From assembly GCF_001997295.1 (NCBI RefSeq), contig NZ_CP019605.1, positions 682,001 through 746,000 of the forward strand: a stretch of 64,000 nucleotides of DNA. The letters run 5' to 3'. Origin of the DNA: Tessaracoccus flavus. Its GTDB lineage: Bacteria; Actinomycetota; Actinomycetes; Propionibacteriales; Propionibacteriaceae. The notes under the pieces are model-generated. The model worked only from the letters and a program-made list of their open reading frames with translations, was not told where the DNA came from and ran no database searches. Position numbers and translations under genes: made by a program. Positions 15,704 through 25,108 of this stretch are shown in pieces (the first letter of the stretch is position 1; each line of letters starts with the position of its first letter).

Positions 15704-16462
15704 TCAGAGCAGTTCGGGGATGCTGCCCGCCGCCATCAATAGCCCTACGGCAATCATGAGGACGACGAACGAGATTGTCAGGACCCGGGGGCCGAGCCTC
15801 TTGCCGACCCGGGCCCCTAGGAGGCTGCCCGCGGCCGCGGTGACGCTGAACGCCAGGAGCAGGGGCCAGTCCAGACCTCCTGTGCCACCGAGCAGCCGGG
15901 TGCCAAGGGCCGTGGCGGCGTTGATGCTGATCACCAAGAGAGACGTCCCGACCGCTGCGGGCATGGAGAATCCCAGAACCAGTGTCAGCGCCGGCACGAT
16001 CGCGAAGCCGCCGCCTACGCCGAAGAACCCAGTCAGGAGGCCCACCGCCGTCGCGGTCGCGATCACCGCCAGCCACCCCTTACGTTGCGGATCCGGGCGG
16101 GTGCCCCGGAGGCGTCGAAGCATGACGGCGGCGACCACCAGCATCAGCACCGAGAACGCGGCGGTGAGCACCGTATCTGGGACGCGAACCGACGCGATGG
16201 ACCCGGCCGCAGCTCCGGCGATCCCAAGGAGCGCGAAGGTGAGTCCCTCCCGCCATCTGACGTTGCCATCGCGCTGGTGGGGGATCACCCCGACCAGTGA
16301 CGTCAAGCCAACGATGATGAGCGCGCCGGTGGTCGCGGCGCCAGCGCCCTGCCCGAAGATGTAGATGAGGGCAGGGACAGTGAGGATCGCCCCTCCGCCC
16401 CCGATGGCGCCGAGCACGGCGCCAATCAGGAGGCCGAGGGGGATCGCCCAGGGCCAGGCCAT
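15704..16462 (-). CDS. TauE/SafE-family (sulfite exporter-like) membrane protein
   Basis: 252 residues with eight hydrophobic segments in two similar halves. Each half starts with the family glycine motif: LGAIGGGGAILTVPALIYIFG and TGFFGVGGGFAIVPALTLVLG. TauE/SafE proteins move sulfite, thiosulfate or sulfonates. Its start codon overlaps the stop of the MBL-rhodanese gene (ATGA), so it belongs to the same sulfur operon and probably exports sulfite or thiosulfate made by its neighbours (inference). Confidence 0.85.
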   Translation of the reverse strand: MAWPWAIPLGLLIGAVLGAIGGGGAILTVPALIYIFGQGAGAATTGALIIVGLTSLVGVIPHQRDGNVRWREGLTFALLGIAGAAAGSIASVRVPDTVLTAAFSVLMLVVAAVMLRRLRGTRPDPQRKGWLAVIATATAVGLLTGFFGVGGGFAIVPALTLVLGFSMPAAVGTSLLVISINAATALGTRLLGGTGGLDWPLLLAFSVTAAAGSLLGARVGKRLGPRVLTISFVVLMIAVGLLMAAGSIPELL

Positions 16463-17808
16463 CAGACGAGCGTCAGCCCGGCCGCCCGCGCCTGCTCATC
16501 GAAGCTGTCATCCACATGAACGACGGTCTTGCCCGCTGCCTGGAGGATCGACGAGGCGATCGACGCCCGGTAACCGCCGGCACAGTGCACCCACAGCTCG
16601 CCGTCGGGAACCTCATCCATCCTCTTGAGGATGTCGTGGAGCGGGATGTGGACGGCGCCCTCGATGTGGGATTCGTCCCATTCCTGCTTGCGGCGGGTGT
16701 CGAGGATGACCACCTCGCGGTGGTGCTTGACCTGGGCCAGATCGGCAAATGTTGCGCGGGTCAGTGTCCCCAATTCGTCGTCGGTCCAGTCCGACGGCCC
16801 GCCCGTCGCCGACGCCGCGGCGCGGTCGATACCGATGAGGGTCATTTCGCGCTGAGCTTCAGCCACCTGCTCCTCCGACTCGCCCAGCAGTGTCACCGGC
16901 GTTCCCCACGGGATCAGCCAACCCAGGTAGGTCGAGAACTGTCCGTCGAGGCCGATGTTGTAGGTGCCGGGTGCGTGCCCGGCCGCGAAGGCGGTGCGGG
17001 TGCGCAGGTCAACCAGCCATTCGCCGGCTTCCAGGCGGGCGCGGAGCTCCTGCTTGTCGGCGCGGTGAACCGGGGAGAGGTCCGAAGCGTCAGGGCCGGA
17101 GGCATTCGCGGGCCCCATGTGTGCGTAGTAGGCGGGGAAGACGTCGAGGCCGGCGAGGAGAGCTTCGACGTACTCTTCCTCACCCTGGGTGAGGGCGGGG
17201 TTCTGCTTCTTCTCGAGCCCGATGGTCGAGGAATCCCCGGTGGTCGGGGTCGCGGAACAGAACGAGCCGAAGCCGTGGGTCGGCATGATCTGGGTCTCGT
17301 CCGGGAGTTCGCTCGCCAGCCTGTGGGCGGAGGCGTGCTGATGACGGGCCAGCGCCTCGGCATGCTCCTTGCCGAGCAGGTCAGGGCGCCCGGTCGCTCC
17401 GTAGAGGAGGGATCCGCCGGTGAAGACCACAGGCTCTGCGTCGTCCAGGAGGGCGTAGGAGAGGTGCGTGAACGTGTGCCCGGGCGTGAGCAGGGCCTGC
17501 ACCTTCATGGAACCGACGTCGATAACGTCCTTGTCGGCGATGGGCGTGCGCTCGAAGCTCACGTCGTCGTCGCCGTTGACGTAGTACTTGGCTCCGACCT
17601 GCTGCGCCAGAGCATAGCCGCCCGTGACGTAGTCGTTGTGGATGTGGGTCTCGAAGATGGCTTCGATGCGAACGCCCTCGTCAGTGGCGAGCTTGAGCAC
17701 ACGTTCGATGTCGCGCTGCGGGTCGATGACGAAGGCGACGTCGCCGTCGTGGACGAGGTAGCTCCGGTCCCCGAGGGACTTGGTCTCAATGGTGTGAATG
17801 GTGGGCAT
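16462..17808 (-). CDS. MBL-fold persulfide dioxygenase-like / rhodanese fusion protein
   Basis: 448 residues. N-terminal metallo-beta-lactamase domain (1-250) with THIHNDYVTGG (His55, His57, Asp59), GHTFTHLSY and FTGGSLLYGATGRPDLLG, as in ETHE1/BaeB-type enzymes. Then a first rhodanese fold (about 270-345) lacking a Cys at the active loop, and a second rhodanese fold (360-440) with active loop HCAGGYRAS. The layout resembles CstB of Staphylococcus, which oxidises low-molecular-weight persulfide to thiosulfate. The context (separate rhodanese upstream, TauE downstream, CsoR/CstR-like operator) fits sulfide/persulfide detoxification. Confidence 0.85.
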   Translation of the reverse strand: MPTIHTIETKSLGDRSYLVHDGDVAFVIDPQRDIERVLKLATDEGVRIEAIFETHIHNDYVTGGYALAQQVGAKYYVNGDDDVSFERTPIADKDVIDVGSMKVQALLTPGHTFTHLSYALLDDAEPVVFTGGSLLYGATGRPDLLGKEHAEALARHQHASAHRLASELPDETQIMPTHGFGSFCSATPTTGDSSTIGLEKKQNPALTQGEEEYVEALLAGLDVFPAYYAHMGPANASGPDASDLSPVHRADKQELRARLEAGEWLVDLRTRTAFAAGHAPGTYNIGLDGQFSTYLGWLIPWGTPVTLLGESEEQVAEAQREMTLIGIDRAAASATGGPSDWTDDELGTLTRATFADLAQVKHHREVVILDTRRKQEWDESHIEGAVHIPLHDILKRMDEVPDGELWVHCAGGYRASIASSILQAAGKTVVHVDDSFDEQARAAGLTLV

Positions 17809-17825
17809 GATCAGTCTCCTGGCGG

Positions 17826-18146
17826 TCAGTTGGGCTGGGTTCCTGTGGCGACGGGGAGCCCGGCGTCGATCCACGCGAGGGTGCCGCCCGCGACGGAGCA
17901 GGCGCTACGGCCCGACGCCGCTACCGCCTCGGCCCCCTTCAGGCTGCGGACGCCGCTGCGGCAGATGACCCAGACATCCTCGGGTAGCTCGTCAACCCGG
18001 TCGGCCACCTGGCCGAGGGGAATGAGGACGGCGCCGGGGACGTGCACCTCCTCGTACTCGTGCGGTTCACGCACGTCCAGCAGGAACGCACCCTGGTCGA
18101 GCGCAGCGCGGAGCGTAGGGATATCGACTTCTCTCATGCCCGCCAT
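17826..18146 (-). CDS. single-domain rhodanese
   Basis: About 103-106 residues from ATG 18146 or 18137. It has VDIPTLRAALDQGAFLLDVREPHEYEEVHVPGA and the active loop VICRSGVRS with the persulfide-carrying Cys. It probably moves sulfane sulfur to or from thiols. It is the first gene of the sulfur operon; the palindrome TACCCC-TG-GGGGTA ends 3 nt upstream of ATG 18146, so the transcript may be leaderless or nearly so. A longer start at 18197 would run across the operator and is not preferred. Confidence 0.85.
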   Translation of the reverse strand: MAGMREVDIPTLRAALDQGAFLLDVREPHEYEEVHVPGAVLIPLGQVADRVDELPEDVWVICRSGVRSLKGAEAVAASGRSACSVAGGTLAWIDAGLPVATGTQPN

Positions 18147-18148
18147 GC

Positions 18149-18162
18149 TACCCCTGGGGGTA
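18149..18162. promoter_or_regulatory. CsoR/CstR-like operator
   Basis: TACCCC-TG-GGGGTA has perfect 6-bp arms. C/G runs flanked by TA are the form of operators bound by CsoR-family repressors (copper CsoR, persulfide-sensing CstR). The downstream genes are all sulfane-sulfur genes, which favours a CstR-type sensor. The repressor gene is not in the window. Confidence 0.6.
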
Positions 18163-18178
18163 TGCACTGTCCAAGGAA

Positions 18179-18196
18179 TGCAGATGATCGTCTGCA
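18179..18196. promoter_or_regulatory. candidate operator upstream of the three-gene PLP/FAD cluster
   Basis: TGCAGATGATCGTCTGCA matches its own reverse complement at 16 of 18 positions. It lies 68 bp before the first cluster gene and just upstream of a possible -10 (TAGTGT, 18232-18237). No regulator gene sits next to it. Confidence 0.4.
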
Positions 18197-18263: not shown

Positions 18264-19274
18264 ATGAGCAGCGCACGCTTCCCAGCCTCCATCGGGGCGG
18301 ACGTTGGGTCTACGCCGCTGGCCTCCCTGGAGCGCCTCTTCCGCAGGCCGGACGTCCGGGTTTTCGGGAAGCTGGAGAATCGCAACCCGACGGGAAGCGC
18401 CAAGGACCGCTCTGCTCTGGGCATCGTCCGAGAGGCCTGGGAGAGTGGCCGGCTGAAGCCTGGGACCGTCGTTGTCGAGTCGAGCTCGGGCAACCTCGCG
18501 ATGGCTTGCGCTCGTCTCAGCGCGTTGCTTGAGTTCTCATTCGAGTGCGTGGTCGACCCCAGGGCCAACGCCCGCACGATCGCGGCGATCGAGGCCTACG
18601 GGGCCCGCGTCCACCGGATCGCGGAGCCGGACCCTGAGACCGGGGATTGGCTTGTCGCCAGACTCGCCCGGGTGCGGGAACTGCTCGGGTCGATCCCGGG
18701 CGCCATCACGCTCGACCAGTACTCCAACGTTGCGGCGATCAGGGCCCACGCGGACGGCACCATGCGGGAGATCCTTGAGCAGGCGGGGGAGCCGGACCTG
18801 CTCTATGTGGCGACCAGCACGACCGGCACGGTCGGTGGCTGCCTTCGCGTGGTGGGCGAGCGAGCCCTGCGCACCGATGTGGTGGCCGTCGACGCCGAGG
18901 GGTCCGTCCTCTTCGGAGGCACTCGCGGCCGCAGGATGTTGTCAGGCTATGGCGCGGGCTTCGTGCCGCCGCTCTCCCAGTACTCCAGCCCCGCCCGCGT
19001 CGCGCGCGTCGACGACCTCAGTGCGGTCATCGGGGCCCGCGCGCTGACGCTCACCGAGGGTCTGCTGGCCGGAGCCTCGACCGGAGCGGTGATCTCGGCG
19101 CTGCGCGCTGACTATGCCAACCTCCCGGCGGGCAGCACTGTCGTGGTGATGGTGCACGATGGGGGCATGCCCTACCTCGACACCGTTTACGACGACGACT
19201 GGGTGTGCCGAACCTTCGAGGTCACGCGCGCTGAGCTCCGGGCACGGGTGGCCGACTTCGCCGCCGCCCCATGA
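18264..19274 (+). CDS. PLP-dependent cysteine-synthase-fold enzyme (SbnA-like)
   Basis: 336 residues, fold-type II. KLENRNPTGSAKDRSALG contains the PLP lysine (Lys47) and SSSGNLAMACA is the substrate/PLP loop; TSTTGTVGGC is the phosphate-binding Gly/Thr loop. The overall look is closer to SbnA (which joins O-phosphoserine with glutamate on the way to diaminopropionate) than to CysK, which has SGNTG. The gene overlaps the next by 4 bases. The start at 18264 is the first ATG; its ribosome site is weak. The likely role is a beta-replacement that builds a non-protein amino acid. Substrates are unknown. Confidence 0.75.
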   Translation: MSSARFPASIGADVGSTPLASLERLFRRPDVRVFGKLENRNPTGSAKDRSALGIVREAWESGRLKPGTVVVESSSGNLAMACARLSALLEFSFECVVDPRANARTIAAIEAYGARVHRIAEPDPETGDWLVARLARVRELLGSIPGAITLDQYSNVAAIRAHADGTMREILEQAGEPDLLYVATSTTGTVGGCLRVVGERALRTDVVAVDAEGSVLFGGTRGRRMLSGYGAGFVPPLSQYSSPARVARVDDLSAVIGARALTLTEGLLAGASTGAVISALRADYANLPAGSTVVVMVHDGGMPYLDTVYDDDWVCRTFEVTRAELRARVADFAAAP

Positions 19275-20767
19275 GGGTCGCCATCGTCGGAGCCGGGCCC
19301 CGCGGGCTGTTCGCAGTGGAGCGACTCTGGGCACACGCCGCGCCGGGGACGTGCCTCGACGTCGTCCTCTTCGATCCCCGCGACCCGGGGGTGGGGGCCG
19401 CCTACGACCCTACGCAGCCGGAGTATCTGAGGCTCAACGTCAACTCCGCCGTCGTCTCCGCCGCCTGGCCAGGAGAAGACACCATCCCATCCTTCAACGC
19501 CTGGAGGCTGTCCACGGGCGAGCGCGAACCGTTGGAGCCGTTTCCGCCGCGGGCCCTCGTGGGACGCTATCTCGGCTGGTTCTGGGGATGGCTGAACCAG
19601 CAGACGCCGAGCGGATCCTTGCTCGCTCACCGCAGCCTGAACGTCGCCGAGCTCGCCGCGTCCGGAGCCGGCTGGGTCGTGGACGGAGAGATCTTCGACG
19701 AGGTCCTGCTCGCCACCGGGCATGAAGGGAGCTGGCCGGGACAACTTCACGGCGACGGGGTTATCCCCGCCGTTTTTCCGGTCCAGCGGTGGCTGGGCGA
19801 GGACGACGTCCCGCCGGGGTGCCGAGTGGCCTTCCGCGGCGCGGCGCTCACCTTCATCGACGCAGCGCTGGCGCTCACCGAGGGTCGCGGGGGAAGGTTC
19901 ATCGGCGACTGGGCGACGGGCCTGGCCTACGAGCGCTCAGGCCGGGAACCGCGCACACTGTGGCCGGTGGGCCGCTCCGGGCGGTGGATGGATCCGAAAC
20001 CCCAGCCGGGAACCCTGCTGGCCGAGGCCGACCCCGAGATCCTGCGCGTCGGCAGGGCCGCAGTGTTGAGTGCGGAGACCCCGACGGCGTCGCTCGGGGC
20101 CGTGCACACCACGGCGGTGGCGCTGGGGGCGGACCCGGACCGGCTGGCGAGCCTGCTCGACCCCGGCCGGGGCGATGCCACGGAGGCGCTGCGCCAGCGT
20201 CTCACCGCAGTGGCGGGCTCTTCCGATCCCGGCACCTCCTGGGCCTTGGGGCACGCCTGGCGTGGGCTCTACGACGCCCTGCGGTACCGCTTCGAAGGGA
20301 CCGTCGAGGGGTTCGCCCCGTTCGCCCGGCTCGCCAGCACGCTGGAGCGAGTGGCCTTCGGGCCGCCCCCGGTGAATGCCGCCAAGATCCTGGCCCTCAT
20401 CGAGGCCGGCCTCATTGATCCCACATCCCTCGAGCGGGCGCACTTCGACGGCGCCTCCCCGATCGGCCTCCCAGCAGCGCCCGACGTGATCGTCGACGCC
20501 GTGCTGCCTCCCCCCGGGGTGGTCCCCGGATCGCTGGTCGGCAGACTGGTCGACGACGGGGTGATCGTCTCCCCGGCGGGCCGTCGCGGAGTGGCGGTGG
20601 CCCCGGACGCCAACTGCCTCGACCGCGATGGCGTGCCGGTGCCCGGTCTGGCCTGCATCGGACGCGCCACCGAAGATGTGGTCATCGGCAACGACACCCT
20701 CAACCGCGCGCTTCACCCAGCTGTTGACCTGTGGGCGCGCCGCATCACCCAGAAAGGTAGCCAATGA
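19271..20767 (+). CDS. FAD/NAD(P)-binding protein (FAD-NAD(P)-binding family, PF13454 type)
   Basis: 498 residues. N-terminal Rossmann motif VAIVGAGPRGLFAVERL, then VVLFDPRDPGVGAAYDPTQPEYLRLNVNSAV, typical of this poorly known family, and a second nucleotide-linked segment CRVAFRGAALTFIDAALALTEGRGG. The C-terminal GLACIGRATEDVVIGNDTLNR resembles the closing FAD motif of related oxidoreductases. It is locked between two PLP enzymes by 4-bp overlaps on both sides (ATGA), so it should act in the same pathway, perhaps as an oxidase or N-hydroxylase of the amino-acid product (inference). Confidence 0.75.
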   Translation: MRVAIVGAGPRGLFAVERLWAHAAPGTCLDVVLFDPRDPGVGAAYDPTQPEYLRLNVNSAVVSAAWPGEDTIPSFNAWRLSTGEREPLEPFPPRALVGRYLGWFWGWLNQQTPSGSLLAHRSLNVAELAASGAGWVVDGEIFDEVLLATGHEGSWPGQLHGDGVIPAVFPVQRWLGEDDVPPGCRVAFRGAALTFIDAALALTEGRGGRFIGDWATGLAYERSGREPRTLWPVGRSGRWMDPKPQPGTLLAEADPEILRVGRAAVLSAETPTASLGAVHTTAVALGADPDRLASLLDPGRGDATEALRQRLTAVAGSSDPGTSWALGHAWRGLYDALRYRFEGTVEGFAPFARLASTLERVAFGPPPVNAAKILALIEAGLIDPTSLERAHFDGASPIGLPAAPDVIVDAVLPPPGVVPGSLVGRLVDDGVIVSPAGRRGVAVAPDANCLDRDGVPVPGLACIGRATEDVVIGNDTLNRALHPAVDLWARRITQKGSQ

Positions 20768-22110
20768 ACACCGCAGTGCACGGAGCGCCCCCACTCACGG
20801 GGCGGCGCGAGCCCTGGATGGACGAACTGCTGGGTGATCCAGAGACCGTCACGGGGTTACTGGACCAGTTCGGGTCCCCGGTCAACGTCCTGGACCCTTC
20901 GCCGCTCGGGAGAAACGCCGCGGAGCTCGTTGCCGCGGGCCGAGAGTCCGGCGTTGAGACCAGGGTCTTTTTCGCGCGAAAGGCGAACAAGACCCACGCC
21001 CTTGTGAAGCGTGCGATCGAGGACGGTCACGGTGTGGACGTCGCCAGCCACGCCGAACTCCGTCAGGTGCTGGATCTGGGCATGCCTCCCGCCAGGATCA
21101 TCGTCAGCGCCGCGGTCAAAACCGATCAGCTGCTCGCCCTCGCCGCGGACAGCGGCGCGACGATCTCCGTCGACCACGTGTCCGAACTACGTCGAATCGA
21201 GCGCCTCGCCTCCCCCGGGAGGCTTGTCGCCGTCGCCCCCCGGCTGGCTCCAGACCCCGCCTCCGGGGTCCCTCCCACCCGCTTCGGGGAACTGCGTGAC
21301 ACCTGGATCGCGGCGCTGTCTGAGGTTCAGCCGGGAGTCAGCGTCACCGGCCTCCACGTCCACCTCCACGGGTACGCCGTGGCCGACCGGGCCACGGCGA
21401 TAGCGGAGTCCGTCCGGATGGCAGATGAGCTGCGGAGTCTCGGCCATGCTCCGACCTTCCTCGATCTGGGAGGGGGAGTGCCGATGAGCTACCTCACCGA
21501 CGAGACCCAGTGGCGTGAGTTCTGGGACGTCCTGGGGGCGGGTGGCGAGCCGGAGTCCATCACGTGGCGGGATCACCGGCTCGGCACCGTCTACCCCTAC
21601 TACCAGGCCCCGACGCGGGGCGAGTGGCTCCGCGAGCTGCTCTCCGCCCGCCCCGAGAGTGGAGACACGTGCGCAGGCCTCCTGCGTCGGGCGGGGCTGG
21701 CGCTGCACCTCGAACCTGGCCGGAGCCTCGCCGACGGCTGCGGAGTGACTCTCGCCCGCGTGGCTTTCATCAAGCGCCGCAGCGACGGGGTGCCGCTCAT
21801 CGGTCTGGAGATGAACCGCACCCAGTGCCGCTCCACCTCCGACGACTTCATGGTCGACCCCGTCCTGGTAAGGACCAACGCCCCGGGAGAGCCCCTCGAC
21901 GGATTCCTCGTCGGTGCCTACTGCATCGAGGACGAGGTCATTCTGCGTCGGCGGATGCATTTCCCGCACGGCGTGGCGGCCGGTGACGTCATCGCGCTGA
22001 TCAACACCGGCGGCTACCTCATGCACATCCTTGAGAGCGCATCGCATCAGTTGCCGCTGGCGAAGAACGTCGTGTGGCCGAGCCTGGAGCTCGACGGGAT
22101 CGATCGCTAG
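20764..22110 (+). CDS. fold-type III PLP decarboxylase-like enzyme (Y4yA / SbnH / LysA-like)
   Basis: 448 residues. PLP barrel with VFFARKANKTHALV (PLP Lys73), GVDVASHAELRQVLDLG, GLHVHLHGYAV and FLDLGGGVPMSY, then LHLEPGRSLADGCG, and GAYCIEDEVILRRR, whose Cys corresponds to the second-subunit active-site Cys of ornithine/diaminopimelate decarboxylases. An insertion of about 60 residues around 260-320 (GTVYPYYQAPTRGEWL) is unlike LysA and is typical of the Y4yA-type group. It would decarboxylate an amino acid made by the first two enzymes. The real substrate is unknown. Confidence 0.75.
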   Translation: MNTAVHGAPPLTGRREPWMDELLGDPETVTGLLDQFGSPVNVLDPSPLGRNAAELVAAGRESGVETRVFFARKANKTHALVKRAIEDGHGVDVASHAELRQVLDLGMPPARIIVSAAVKTDQLLALAADSGATISVDHVSELRRIERLASPGRLVAVAPRLAPDPASGVPPTRFGELRDTWIAALSEVQPGVSVTGLHVHLHGYAVADRATAIAESVRMADELRSLGHAPTFLDLGGGVPMSYLTDETQWREFWDVLGAGGEPESITWRDHRLGTVYPYYQAPTRGEWLRELLSARPESGDTCAGLLRRAGLALHLEPGRSLADGCGVTLARVAFIKRRSDGVPLIGLEMNRTQCRSTSDDFMVDPVLVRTNAPGEPLDGFLVGAYCIEDEVILRRRMHFPHGVAAGDVIALINTGGYLMHILESASHQLPLAKNVVWPSLELDGIDR

Positions 22111-22142
22111 TCGGCGCGGCCGCCTCCGACTACGAGTTCCTT
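22108..22142. terminator. bidirectional terminator between converging genes
   Basis: TAGTCGG (22108-22114) pairs with CCGACTA (22136-22142) around a GC-rich loop. It covers the ends of the Y4yA-like gene (22110) and the epimerase-like gene (22130). No T-run. Confidence 0.45.
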
Positions 22143-22897
22143 GGCCAGTCGTCCGGGGTCGGCTCGTCCGGGTTCTCGGGCCTCGATGAGTGGCGCGTCA
22201 CGTCGTGCGCGGGGCGGTACCCGAGCTCCAGGCGCGTGTTGGTCGTCGACCACCGGCGGTGTGGGTTGTCGGAGACCGCGTAGTACAGCCCGAACGTGAC
22301 GTCCGCCTCGATCGCGGAGCGCACCACGTCGACGGTGTCGTCGTAGCTCAGCCACATCGCCCTCAGCAGGTCGACGTCGGCTCCCGCGTCCGGATCATCC
22401 GATATCCAGCCGATGCGCAGCGCGATGAACTCCAGACCGAACTCGTCGTGGTAGTAGCGACCGATCGTCTCCCCGAACGCTTTCGACACCCCGTAGAGCG
22501 AATCCGGTCGCGGCAGCATATGCGGGTACACGGGCCACTCCTCGTCGCGGTCGTACATGCCCATGACGTGGTTCGACGAGGCGAAGACAAAGCGCCGGAC
22601 CCCCGCCTCGCGGGCCGCTTCGAGCGCGTTGCGCACGCCGATGATGTTGGCGTTGAGCACTGCGTCCCAGGACGATTCCGGGGAAGCGGCTCCCGCCATG
22701 TGCACAACGGTGTCGACGCCGTCCATGAGGGCGAGCACCGCCGGGTAGTCGACCAGGTCGGCCGCAAGCAGATCTGGATCGTTCTCGTCGGGCCTGTGGG
22801 CGTGCCGGATGAGCTCGTACTCGTCTCGGAGCCGCTCCGACAGGAGGGTCCCCACGCCACCGTTGGCCCCAGTGATGAGGATTCTGCGCTTAGTCAT
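22130..22897 (-). CDS. NAD-dependent epimerase/dehydratase family, uronate dehydrogenase-like
   Basis: 255 residues from ATG 22897. Extended SDR: NAD motif LITGANGGVGTLL, catalytic YGVSK (Tyr-x-x-x-Lys), and VFASSNHVMGMY. The short length and NHVMG...YP..PD.LYGVSKAFGE pattern match bacterial uronate dehydrogenases, which oxidise galacturonate or glucuronate to lactones. No other uronate genes are nearby, so the substrate is tentative. Confidence 0.75.
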   Translation of the reverse strand: MTKRRILITGANGGVGTLLSERLRDEYELIRHAHRPDENDPDLLAADLVDYPAVLALMDGVDTVVHMAGAASPESSWDAVLNANIIGVRNALEAAREAGVRRFVFASSNHVMGMYDRDEEWPVYPHMLPRPDSLYGVSKAFGETIGRYYHDEFGLEFIALRIGWISDDPDAGADVDLLRAMWLSYDDTVDVVRSAIEADVTFGLYYAVSDNPHRRWSTTNTRLELGYRPAHDVTRHSSRPENPDEPTPDDWPRNS

Positions 22898-22954
22898 ACG
22901 CCGAGTCTGCCAGGCCCGCGAAGCATCGATGCGGGAATCCGGCCGTGCGCACGG

Positions 22955-22960
22955 TAGACT
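22955..22960 (+). promoter_or_regulatory. -10 element of the RNA helicase gene
   Basis: TAGACT is a good actinobacterial -10; no clear -35 is seen. It would leave a leader of about 120 nt before ATG 23086. Long leaders are usual for cold-inducible DEAD-box helicases; whether this one is cold-regulated is not shown. Confidence 0.35.
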
Positions 22961-23085
22961 GCTGCACAGCGCTCGGGATGTTCTGCTCCGGGCCCCATAG
23001 ATTTCATTCTTACGATGCCATCGCGCTGCGGTCATCACCGCGCCGGGCAGAACCGCTGCATCGCCCCACCAGGGAGACCCACACC

Positions 23086-24534
23086 ATGACCTCATCGGCC
23101 TTTCGCGCGCTCGGCGTGCCCACTCACCTTGCTGCAGTCCTCGAGGCTCGCGGCATCACCACCCCGACCCCGATCCAGGCGGCGACGCTGCCCGACTCCA
23201 TGAGCGGGCGCGACGTGCTCGGCCGCGGACGCACGGGCTCCGGTAAGACCTACGCCTTCCTGCTGCCCATGGTGGCCCGCCTCACCGAATCGGGCACGAA
23301 GCGCGCCCCGAAGCGCCCCCGCGCCCTCATCCTCGCCCCCACCCGCGAGCTCGCCACACAGATCGACGAAGCCCTCGCACCGCTTGCTGAGGCAGCGGGG
23401 CTGACCTCGCGAACCATCTTCGGCGGGGTGAACCAGCGCCCGCAGGTCGCGGCGCTGACCCGTGGCGTGGACGTGCTCGTCGCCTGCCCGGGCCGGCTCG
23501 AGGACCTCATCGCCCAGGGGTTCGTCACCTTGAACGCGATCGAGATCACAATCCTCGACGAGGCCGACCACATGGCCGACCTCGGATTCCTCCCGTCTGT
23601 GCGCCGGCTGCTGGGGGCGACTCCCCAGACCGGCCAGCGCATGCTGTTCTCCGCGACGCTGGACAAGGCCGTCGACACGCTGGTCAAGCAGTTCCTGCAC
23701 CAGCCCAAGGTCCACGAGGCGGACTCCGCAGAGTCCCCTGTGCCGACGCTGCACCACCACGTGCTCCACGTCTCGAACGATGCGCACCTGCCCGTGTTGG
23801 TGAACCTGGCCGCCGCCCCAGGACGCTCGGTGGTCTTCACGCGGACCAAGCACCGCGCCAAGAAGCTGGCCAAGCAACTCAATGCCGCGGGCGTGCCCGC
23901 CGTCGAACTGCAGGGAAACATGAGCCAGGGCCAGCGTGAGCGCTCCATGGCCGCGTTCCACGCCGGGACGGCGCAGACGCTCGTCGCGACGGACGTCGCC
24001 GCACGCGGTATCCACGTCGACGACGTCGGCCTGGTCATCCACGCCGACCCGCCGGTCGAGCACAAGGCCTACACCCACCGCAGCGGCCGTACCGCCCGCG
24101 CCGGAGCCGAGGGCACGGTCGTGACGCTGATGCTCGATGCCCAGCGCTCCGACGTCCGCGACCTCACCCGCAAGGCGGGGGTCAAGCCCACCATCACGCG
24201 CGCCGACGAGCGCCACCCCGTTCTCGTCGAGATCGCACCCGGGGAGCGCACGTTCCCTGGCGGACTGGTCAAGCCGGAGCCCCAGCAGCCCACCGGCGGA
24301 CGCCGGCGCAACCCCGCAGGTGACCGCTCGCGCGGAGCCGAGCAGGGGAGGGGTGCCAACCGTACCGAAGGGCGTGCCCAGAGCAGGTCTGAGCGCCCCC
24401 GCGGCGCAGCCCAGGGCGATGCGCCGTCGGGCCGCCGTCAGGGTCAGCCCCGCTCACGGTCGGCGCAGCCCGTCGGGACAGGTGGGGCCGCAGCCTTCTC
24501 TGCCTCGACCGGTCGCGGTCGGGGACGTCGCTGA
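23086..24534 (+). CDS. DEAD-box ATP-dependent RNA helicase (RhlE/CsdA-like)
   Basis: 482 residues. Q motif (TPTPIQAATLP), Walker A GRTGSGKT, PTREL, DEADHMADLGF, SAT (LFSATLDK), VVFTRTKHRAKKLAKQL, VATDVAARGIHVDDV and HRSGRTARAG are all intact. The last 90 residues are a basic Arg/Gly/Ser/Gln-rich tail for RNA binding. It stands just before the spc operon, so a role in ribosome assembly is natural but unproven. Confidence 0.95.
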   Translation: MTSSAFRALGVPTHLAAVLEARGITTPTPIQAATLPDSMSGRDVLGRGRTGSGKTYAFLLPMVARLTESGTKRAPKRPRALILAPTRELATQIDEALAPLAEAAGLTSRTIFGGVNQRPQVAALTRGVDVLVACPGRLEDLIAQGFVTLNAIEITILDEADHMADLGFLPSVRRLLGATPQTGQRMLFSATLDKAVDTLVKQFLHQPKVHEADSAESPVPTLHHHVLHVSNDAHLPVLVNLAAAPGRSVVFTRTKHRAKKLAKQLNAAGVPAVELQGNMSQGQRERSMAAFHAGTAQTLVATDVAARGIHVDDVGLVIHADPPVEHKAYTHRSGRTARAGAEGTVVTLMLDAQRSDVRDLTRKAGVKPTITRADERHPVLVEIAPGERTFPGGLVKPEPQQPTGGRRRNPAGDRSRGAEQGRGANRTEGRAQSRSERPRGAAQGDAPSGRRQGQPRSRSAQPVGTGGAAAFSASTGRGRGRR

Positions 24535-24571
24535 CGCTGAAGGCGATTTCGCCGCCGGGGACGTCTACAGC

Positions 24572-24577
24572 TAGACT
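24572..24577 (+). promoter_or_regulatory. candidate spc operon promoter (-10)
   Basis: TAGACT at 24572-24577 with a weak TTCGCC 18 nt upstream, giving a leader of about 160 nt before rplN. The leader carries a CCCC-TTC-GGGG hairpin (24601-24611). The second transcription start for ribosomal genes is needed because 11.8 kb separates this from the S10 operon. Confidence 0.4.
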
Positions 24578-24739
24578 GAACCGGTTGCCTTGGAACTGTG
24601 CCCCTTCGGGGGGACCTTTTCCGGGTATACACGTGCCCTTCACTCTCTCGAGCTGACGGGTGCCTCCTGGCAAAATCCAGGGGGTCGGTTTCTAGTTTCG
24701 CAAGGCCCTGCCAGGGAACCGGTGAGACAAGGAGAAGTA

Positions 24740-25108
24740 ATGATCCAGCAGGAGTCGCGACTGAAGGTCGCCGACAACACTGGTGCGAAGGAAATCCTCT
24801 GCATCCGCGTTCTCGGTGGCTCGAAGCGCCGCTACGCCTACCTCGGCGACACCATCGTCGCCACCGTCAAGGACGCGATCCCGGGCGGCAACGTCAAGAA
24901 GGGCGATGTGGTCAAGGCCGTCATCGTCCGCACCAAGAAGGAGCGTCGGCGCGCCGACGGTTCCTACATCAAGTTCGACGAGAACGCAGCGGTCATCCTG
25001 AAGACTGACGGCGAGCCCCGTGGCACCCGTATCTTCGGCCCCGTTGCCCGTGAGCTTCGCGAGAAGAAGTTCATGCGCATCGTCTCTCTCGCCCCGGAGG
25101 TGATCTGA
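24740..25108 (+). CDS. rplN: 50S ribosomal protein L14
   Basis: 122 residues, full length. [18 protein letters not shown] and [20 protein letters not shown] are diagnostic. Start ATG 24740 has AAGGAGAAGTA just upstream. First gene of the spc operon. Confidence 0.98.

Follow-up and report, generated by a model that had tools for sequence, protein, structure and literature searches.

The window analysed here comprises 64,000 nucleotides of the forward strand of the Tessaracoccus flavus chromosome (NZ_CP019605.1, positions 682,001 to 746,000) and carries a compact set of three genes, termed A, B and C. Gene A is predicted to encode an SbnA-like, fold type II pyridoxal phosphate (PLP) beta-replacement enzyme that would ligate O-phospho-L-serine and an amino acid, while genes B and C encode a flavoenzyme and a Y4yA-type PLP decarboxylase, respectively (Table 1). 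The three genes are linked by two 4-bp overlaps, as described in an earlier, sequence-only reading of the window, and both ATGA junctions can be read in the sequence. The closest relatives of all three proteins are found in Tessaracoccus and other Propionibacteriaceae. The host chromosome forms a single contig of 3.22 Mb (99.98% complete). A search of this whole genome revealed neither IucA/IucC, the nonribosomal peptide synthetase-independent siderophore (NIS) synthetases, nor a PF02423 match, the family of SbnB and ornithine cyclodeaminase (OCD). The previously noted absence of SbnB and NIS synthetases thus holds for the entire host genome. The enzyme families are known, their combination is new, and our literature search found no paper on an A-B-C trio.

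Table 1 Features of the A-B-C locus, numbered from the first base of the window.
Feature	Position	Strand	Description
Gene A	18264-19274	+	336 aa from ATG; intact open reading frame (ORF); in-frame GTG at 18234
Gene B	19271-20767	+	498 aa; intact ORF; PF13454 flavoenzyme, FzmM-like flavin N-oxygenase fold predicted by modelling
Gene C	20764-22110	+	448 aa; intact ORF; Y4yA-type fold type III PLP decarboxylase, PF02784
ATGA overlap, A stop/B start	19271-19274	+	from sequence
ATGA overlap, B stop/C start	20764-20767	+	from sequence
CTACCCCTGGGGGTAT inverted repeat	18148-18163		divergent intergenic region
Imperfect palindrome	18179-18196		8/9 pairs; not conserved, no function assigned

Conservation and fusion of the trio

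B loci were collected with two B-family motifs, which were scanned against genome contigs and yielded 60 loci. At 51 of these, A, B and C lie together on one strand; the trio loci L038, L055, L060, L061 and L063 show a match in pieces. A contig edge cuts the locus at three others (L011, L024 and L047), where one partner is visible. In the neighbourhood survey that the sequence-only reading had proposed, co-occurrence is thus conserved and exceeds chance. Because the motif scan might favour some members of the family, whole genomes were also searched with a single protein. Among 198 Propionibacteriaceae genomes, some of them shared with the motif set, B is present in 14, at 15 loci, comprising 11 full trios and two contig-cut loci with one partner. 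In 53 of 394 genomes from the class, B has a match at E 1e-6, mainly with other PF13454 proteins in their N-terminal half; four genomes contain full-length B and three the trio. A C-like protein occurs at E 1e-30 or better in 26 of these class genomes, and the three above 50% identity all adjoin B. Near more distant C proteins, B was not found at 27 loci with flanks of about 1.5 kb or in 19 longer stretches of 12-18 kb. The distribution of the trio is patchy and its content is constant. Its hosts include Corynebacterium (among them C. striatum), Brachybacterium, Propionibacteriaceae, Sulfitobacter and Planctomycetes, and the same trio is carried on the Sulfitobacter plasmid pSpoCB-4 and the Tsukamurella plasmid pTpau01. 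It forms a conserved, self-contained set, with no NIS synthetase or SbnB in the host genome and no transporter in a constant position, in keeping with the earlier view of a compact cluster.

At 24 of the 53 loci where B and C adjoin, the two form a single open frame, including those of Micropruina, Propioniciclava, Kocuria and many Corynebacterium. One genome of the class set likewise carries a B-C fusion, with an open frame of 942 aa. Over 49 loci, the distance matrices of the proteins correlate at 0.87 (A-B), 0.87 (B-C) and 0.90 (A-C), to which the common descent of the hosts contributes. In the B tree, the solo copies from three closely related Corynebacterium (L048, L049 and L066) are nested among trio copies, and A and C were therefore lost there. 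B is an open frame in all three, and L048 and L066 retain fragments of C at a distance of about 9 kb. The solo copies of Brevibacterium and Bowdeniella (L031, L036, L045 and L119) sit on long branches, and B is neighboured in L031 and L045 by phosphate acetyltransferase, cardiolipin synthase and LD-carboxypeptidase genes.

The three enzymes and related clusters

A matches PF00291 and has SbnA (5d84, E 4e-60) as its best solved relative, which bears out its earlier description as an SbnA-like beta-replacement enzyme. In an alignment, the equivalents of SbnA Lys47, Arg132, Tyr152 and Ser185 are kept in all 55 trio A proteins. Arg132, Tyr152 and Ser185 are the SbnA residues for selective O-phosphoserine binding according to an excerpt of PMC12414870. 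NGR234 y4xP differs from trio A at two of the SbnA positions, with Ser152 and Gly185.

Relatives of C, at 75% identity and lower, bear the name 'Y4yA family PLP-dependent enzyme'. Among solved structures, C matches LysA (3vab, E 3e-18) better than SbnH (6knh, E 7e-5), and it scores 106 bits against the LysA profile, whose cut-off is 297.9. The decarboxylase features Lys73, GGG, EPGR, Cys387 and Tyr418 are present in 35 of 35 C proteins. The residue following Cys387 is Ile (31/35) or Val (4/35), and the Cys-Glu pair of the LysA active site is not kept. The predicted model of C has no clear closest relative among the diaminopimelate, ornithine and lysine decarboxylases. Trio C proteins form a single clade (53 rows, support 100/99), separate from 12 OCD-linked C proteins and 17 others, that spans Actinomycetota, Planctomycetota and Roseobacteraceae.

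For the modelled B, FzmM is by far the best structural match over the full length, with a predicted shared fold of 482 residues. The protein previously described as a middle FAD/NAD(P)-binding protein remains a flavoenzyme, and its assignment is sharpened to the FzmM flavin N-oxygenase fold. Like FzmM and CreE, B keeps the catalytic Asn, the aromatic flavin partner and a conserved GRGG stretch; it differs from them in an identity of about 24%, a smaller helical domain and no lyase partner seen. Among 54 B proteins, FzmM Asn62 corresponds to Asn56 in all, Trp51 to Tyr45 in 53, Arg266 to Lys243 in all, and Arg409 to Arg331 in 49.

SbnA-like and Y4yA-like genes are also paired in other settings. 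In S. fredii NGR234, y4yA and y4xP are adjacent, and genes for an opine dehydrogenase, IucA/IucC and an MFS protein come next (y4yA-y4xP-y4xO-y4xN-y4xM), in the place of the flavoenzyme. This segment (L003, 8-15 kb) lies inside a type III secretion locus, and its set of genes would be in keeping with a rhizobactin-like siderophore. On M. avium pMAH135 (L004), the pair stands with an OCD/SbnB-like enzyme and a MATE transporter, and the same set recurs in two actinomycete families (L097, L100, L104, L107, L109, L111 and L112). These OCD and MATE clusters, including that of the mycobacterial plasmid, are possibly of the ethylenediaminedisuccinate/ethylenediaminesuccinic acid hydroxyarginine (EDDS/EDHA) type (aes). 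They share the SbnA-like and Y4yA-like pair with the trio, which in contrast has no OCD-like enzyme or MATE transporter and a C of a separate clade; the M. avium A homologue has Gly185 and lacks the Ser185 of SbnA. A third arrangement, at three loci (L099, L102 and L105), comprises a Y4yA-type decarboxylase, an SbnA/CysK-like enzyme and a class V aminotransferase. Since the third enzyme beside the pair differs, the SbnA-like and Y4yA-like proteins represent a recurrent core, with the flavoenzyme as the third member in the trio.

Staphyloferrin B (sbnA, sbnB and sbnH of Staphylococcus aureus) had been the comparison drawn from the sequence alone. The likeness to SbnA stands, with an SbnA-like step, the three O-phosphoserine residues and a fold type III PLP decarboxylase in common. 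However, the host lacks SbnB and NIS synthetases, C is nearer to LysA structures than to SbnH, and an FzmM-like flavoenzyme is added; the nearest comparison is instead the wider Y4yA/SbnA set. The succession of a PLP decarboxylase and a flavin N-hydroxylase has precedents in VlmD/VlmH of valanimycin and DesA/DesB of desferrioxamine. The likeness here is one of logic; the amine of the trio would first arise by an SbnA-type condensation. VlmH and the diamine hydroxylases RhbE and GorA are treated in an excerpt of PMC7347517, and excerpts of PMC7347517 and PMC11705231 discuss the N-hydroxylation of diaminopropionate in the case of alanosine, where the enzymes are different ones.

A possible pathway and its alternatives

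We tentatively postulate that the three enzymes of the operon may together form a complete pathway, the product of which would be a small N-oxygenated aminoethyl amino acid, a reading that we consider plausible. Given the O-phosphoserine residues of A and the decarboxylase features of C, the expected product of A is an N-(2-amino-2-carboxyethyl)-amino acid, and this compound or a derivative is the expected substrate for decarboxylation by C. In the first step, A would convert O-phospho-L-serine to a PLP-bound aminoacrylate, which an amino acid would attack through its amine; glutamate and aspartate are the most likely partners, with N-(2-amino-2-carboxyethyl)-glutamate (ACEGA) or its aspartate analogue as the product. 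C would then decarboxylate the diaminopropionate part to yield an N-(2-aminoethyl)-amino acid, and B, as an NADPH/O2 flavin enzyme, would hydroxylate a nitrogen of the intermediate, perhaps repeatedly. The B-C fusions suggest that the steps of B and C are consecutive, and their reverse order would also be possible. Such a course of condensation, decarboxylation and N-oxygenation would not need a carrier, and its product would fit the 'modified diamine or amino acid' of the sequence-only reading. With three genes, the pathway is small enough for one-tube reconstitution. The solved FzmM uses aspartate, and biological N-O chemistry would be broadened by a relative that acts on a different substrate. 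More specifically, the trio could be a free-standing route to an N-hydroxylated iminopolycarboxylate chelator, in which A would join O-phosphoserine with glutamate or aspartate, C would decarboxylate and B would hydroxylate the secondary amine; we rate this version as quite unlikely. If true, three soluble enzymes would suffice to build a metal ligand, and the pathway would have neither a synthetase nor a carrier protein or exporter to itself. We presume that such a product would resemble amavadin.

Several observations weigh against the proposed pathway. Six of the 60 motif-found B loci have no intact neighbours (L031 and L036 of Brevibacterium, L045 of Bowdeniella, and L048, L049 and L066 of Corynebacterium), and at L158 and L160 of the Propionibacteriaceae no partner of B was found in flanks of 0.7-1.5 kb. 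B retained without A and C speaks against a strict need for the partners. A scores 327.8 bits against the TIGR03945 SbnA profile, slightly below the curated cut-off of 349.95. The aspartate-site residues Arg276, Asn413, Arg416 and Arg577 of FzmM are not kept in B: the position of Asn413 holds Pro (41/54) or Asp (8/54), that of Arg416 holds Val (43/54) or Arg (8/54), and positions 276 and 577 align with gaps or other residues, in a helical-domain alignment of B and FzmM that rests on about 25% identity. With these four residues lost, the substrate of B is not readable from its sequence. A simple consensus scan of 55 upstream regions showed no clear metal-regulator box; the mean best score exceeded that of shuffles by -0.3 positions for DtxR and by +0.3 and +0.5 positions for two Zur forms, and the best Zur-like site reached 12/15 (L033). 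Finally, in 63 stretches no transporter or resistance gene was found in a constant position next to the trio; ABC ATPases, of various types and 87-9116 bp distant, occur in 14 of them.

Among the alternatives, B could substitute for SbnB by oxidative cleavage of ACEGA to L-2,3-diaminopropionate and 2-oxoglutarate, with decarboxylation of the diaminopropionate unit by C and diaminopropionate or ethylenediamine as the product. An SbnB/OCD-like enzyme does stand beside A and C homologues in M. avium pMAH135 and other actinomycetes, as does an opine dehydrogenase in NGR234, and the host genome has no SbnB homologue. The fold and kept residues of B, however, are those of an NADPH/O2 N-oxygenase, unlike a known amine dehydrogenase, and the OCD enzyme of the OCD-linked clusters may build a second arm and not cleave, which makes this substitution unlikely in our view. 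The superfamilies of A and C, common to the OCD and MATE clusters and to those with opine dehydrogenase and NIS synthetase, would also suit a secreted aminopolycarboxylate metallophore of the EDDS/EDHA kind, with an N-hydroxyl group in place of the second carboxylate arm. An excerpt of a C. striatum pangenome paper (PMC10486106) describes an aminopolycarboxylic metallophore cluster as EDDS-like, and the single C homologue of C. striatum ATCC 6940 at E 1e-15 or better is that of the trio. Our guess is that the reported cluster is the trio; a defined product would then explain a gene set that annotation tools report as an EDDS-like metallophore. We nevertheless regard the secreted metallophore as improbable, in view of the missing fixed-place transporter and clear DtxR- or Zur-like box. 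IucA/IucC is absent from 37 of the 44 B-bearing genomes searched and present in seven, all among the 38 with the trio.

The nearest solved relative of B being FzmM, the flavoenzyme might act on aspartate as CreE and FzmM do, and the resulting nitrosuccinate or nitrous acid might react with the product of A and C. The loss of the four aspartate-site residues argues against this, as does the lack of a recurrent fixed-place gene as a candidate for a CreD-type lyase (CreD itself was not searched for), and we consider it very doubtful. Least credible of all, and extremely improbable, is that A and C are a plain cysteine synthase and diaminopimelate decarboxylase with an unrelated flavoprotein as neighbour; the sequence-only reading had named these two ordinary activities as a counter-case to its proposal. 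The superfamilies of A and C do match, but the host encodes CysK (419 bits, against 165 for A in the same search) and LysA (429 bits, against 86 for C) elsewhere in its genome, both above the cut-offs, and the trio is conserved with B and C fused.

Upstream region and flanking genes

The palindrome upstream of A had been described as the trio's own. A role as a control element is not supported: in 21 of 55 stretches, that of the host among them, the 300 bases preceding A contain a palindrome of equal quality (8/9 or better, gap 0-5), and these palindromes share no common sequence. The CTACCCCTGGGGGTAT repeat, which we take to resemble CsoR/CstR operators, probably serves the rhodanese genes on the - strand. 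It lies between the trio and a divergent gene set (15704-18163) encoding TauE/SafE, a protein with a metallo-beta-lactamase (MBL) fold and a rhodanese domain, and rhodanese. The set looks like a persulfide-response operon, presumably comparable to CstR/CstB, with the MBL-fold and rhodanese protein as the presumed counterpart of CstB.

A short-chain dehydrogenase (SDR) gene lies 24 bp from the trio in L009 (8092-9003) and 64 bp from it in L032 (12710-13585); SDR genes occur in seven of the 63 stretches, and this adjacency may therefore be due to chance. Downstream of C, the genes from 22130-25108 onward, seemingly for ribosomal proteins, stand in common order with T. massiliensis (L007). There, the shared genes begin 64 bp past the trio, and in the host epimerase-like and helicase-like ORFs (22130-24534) lie in between.

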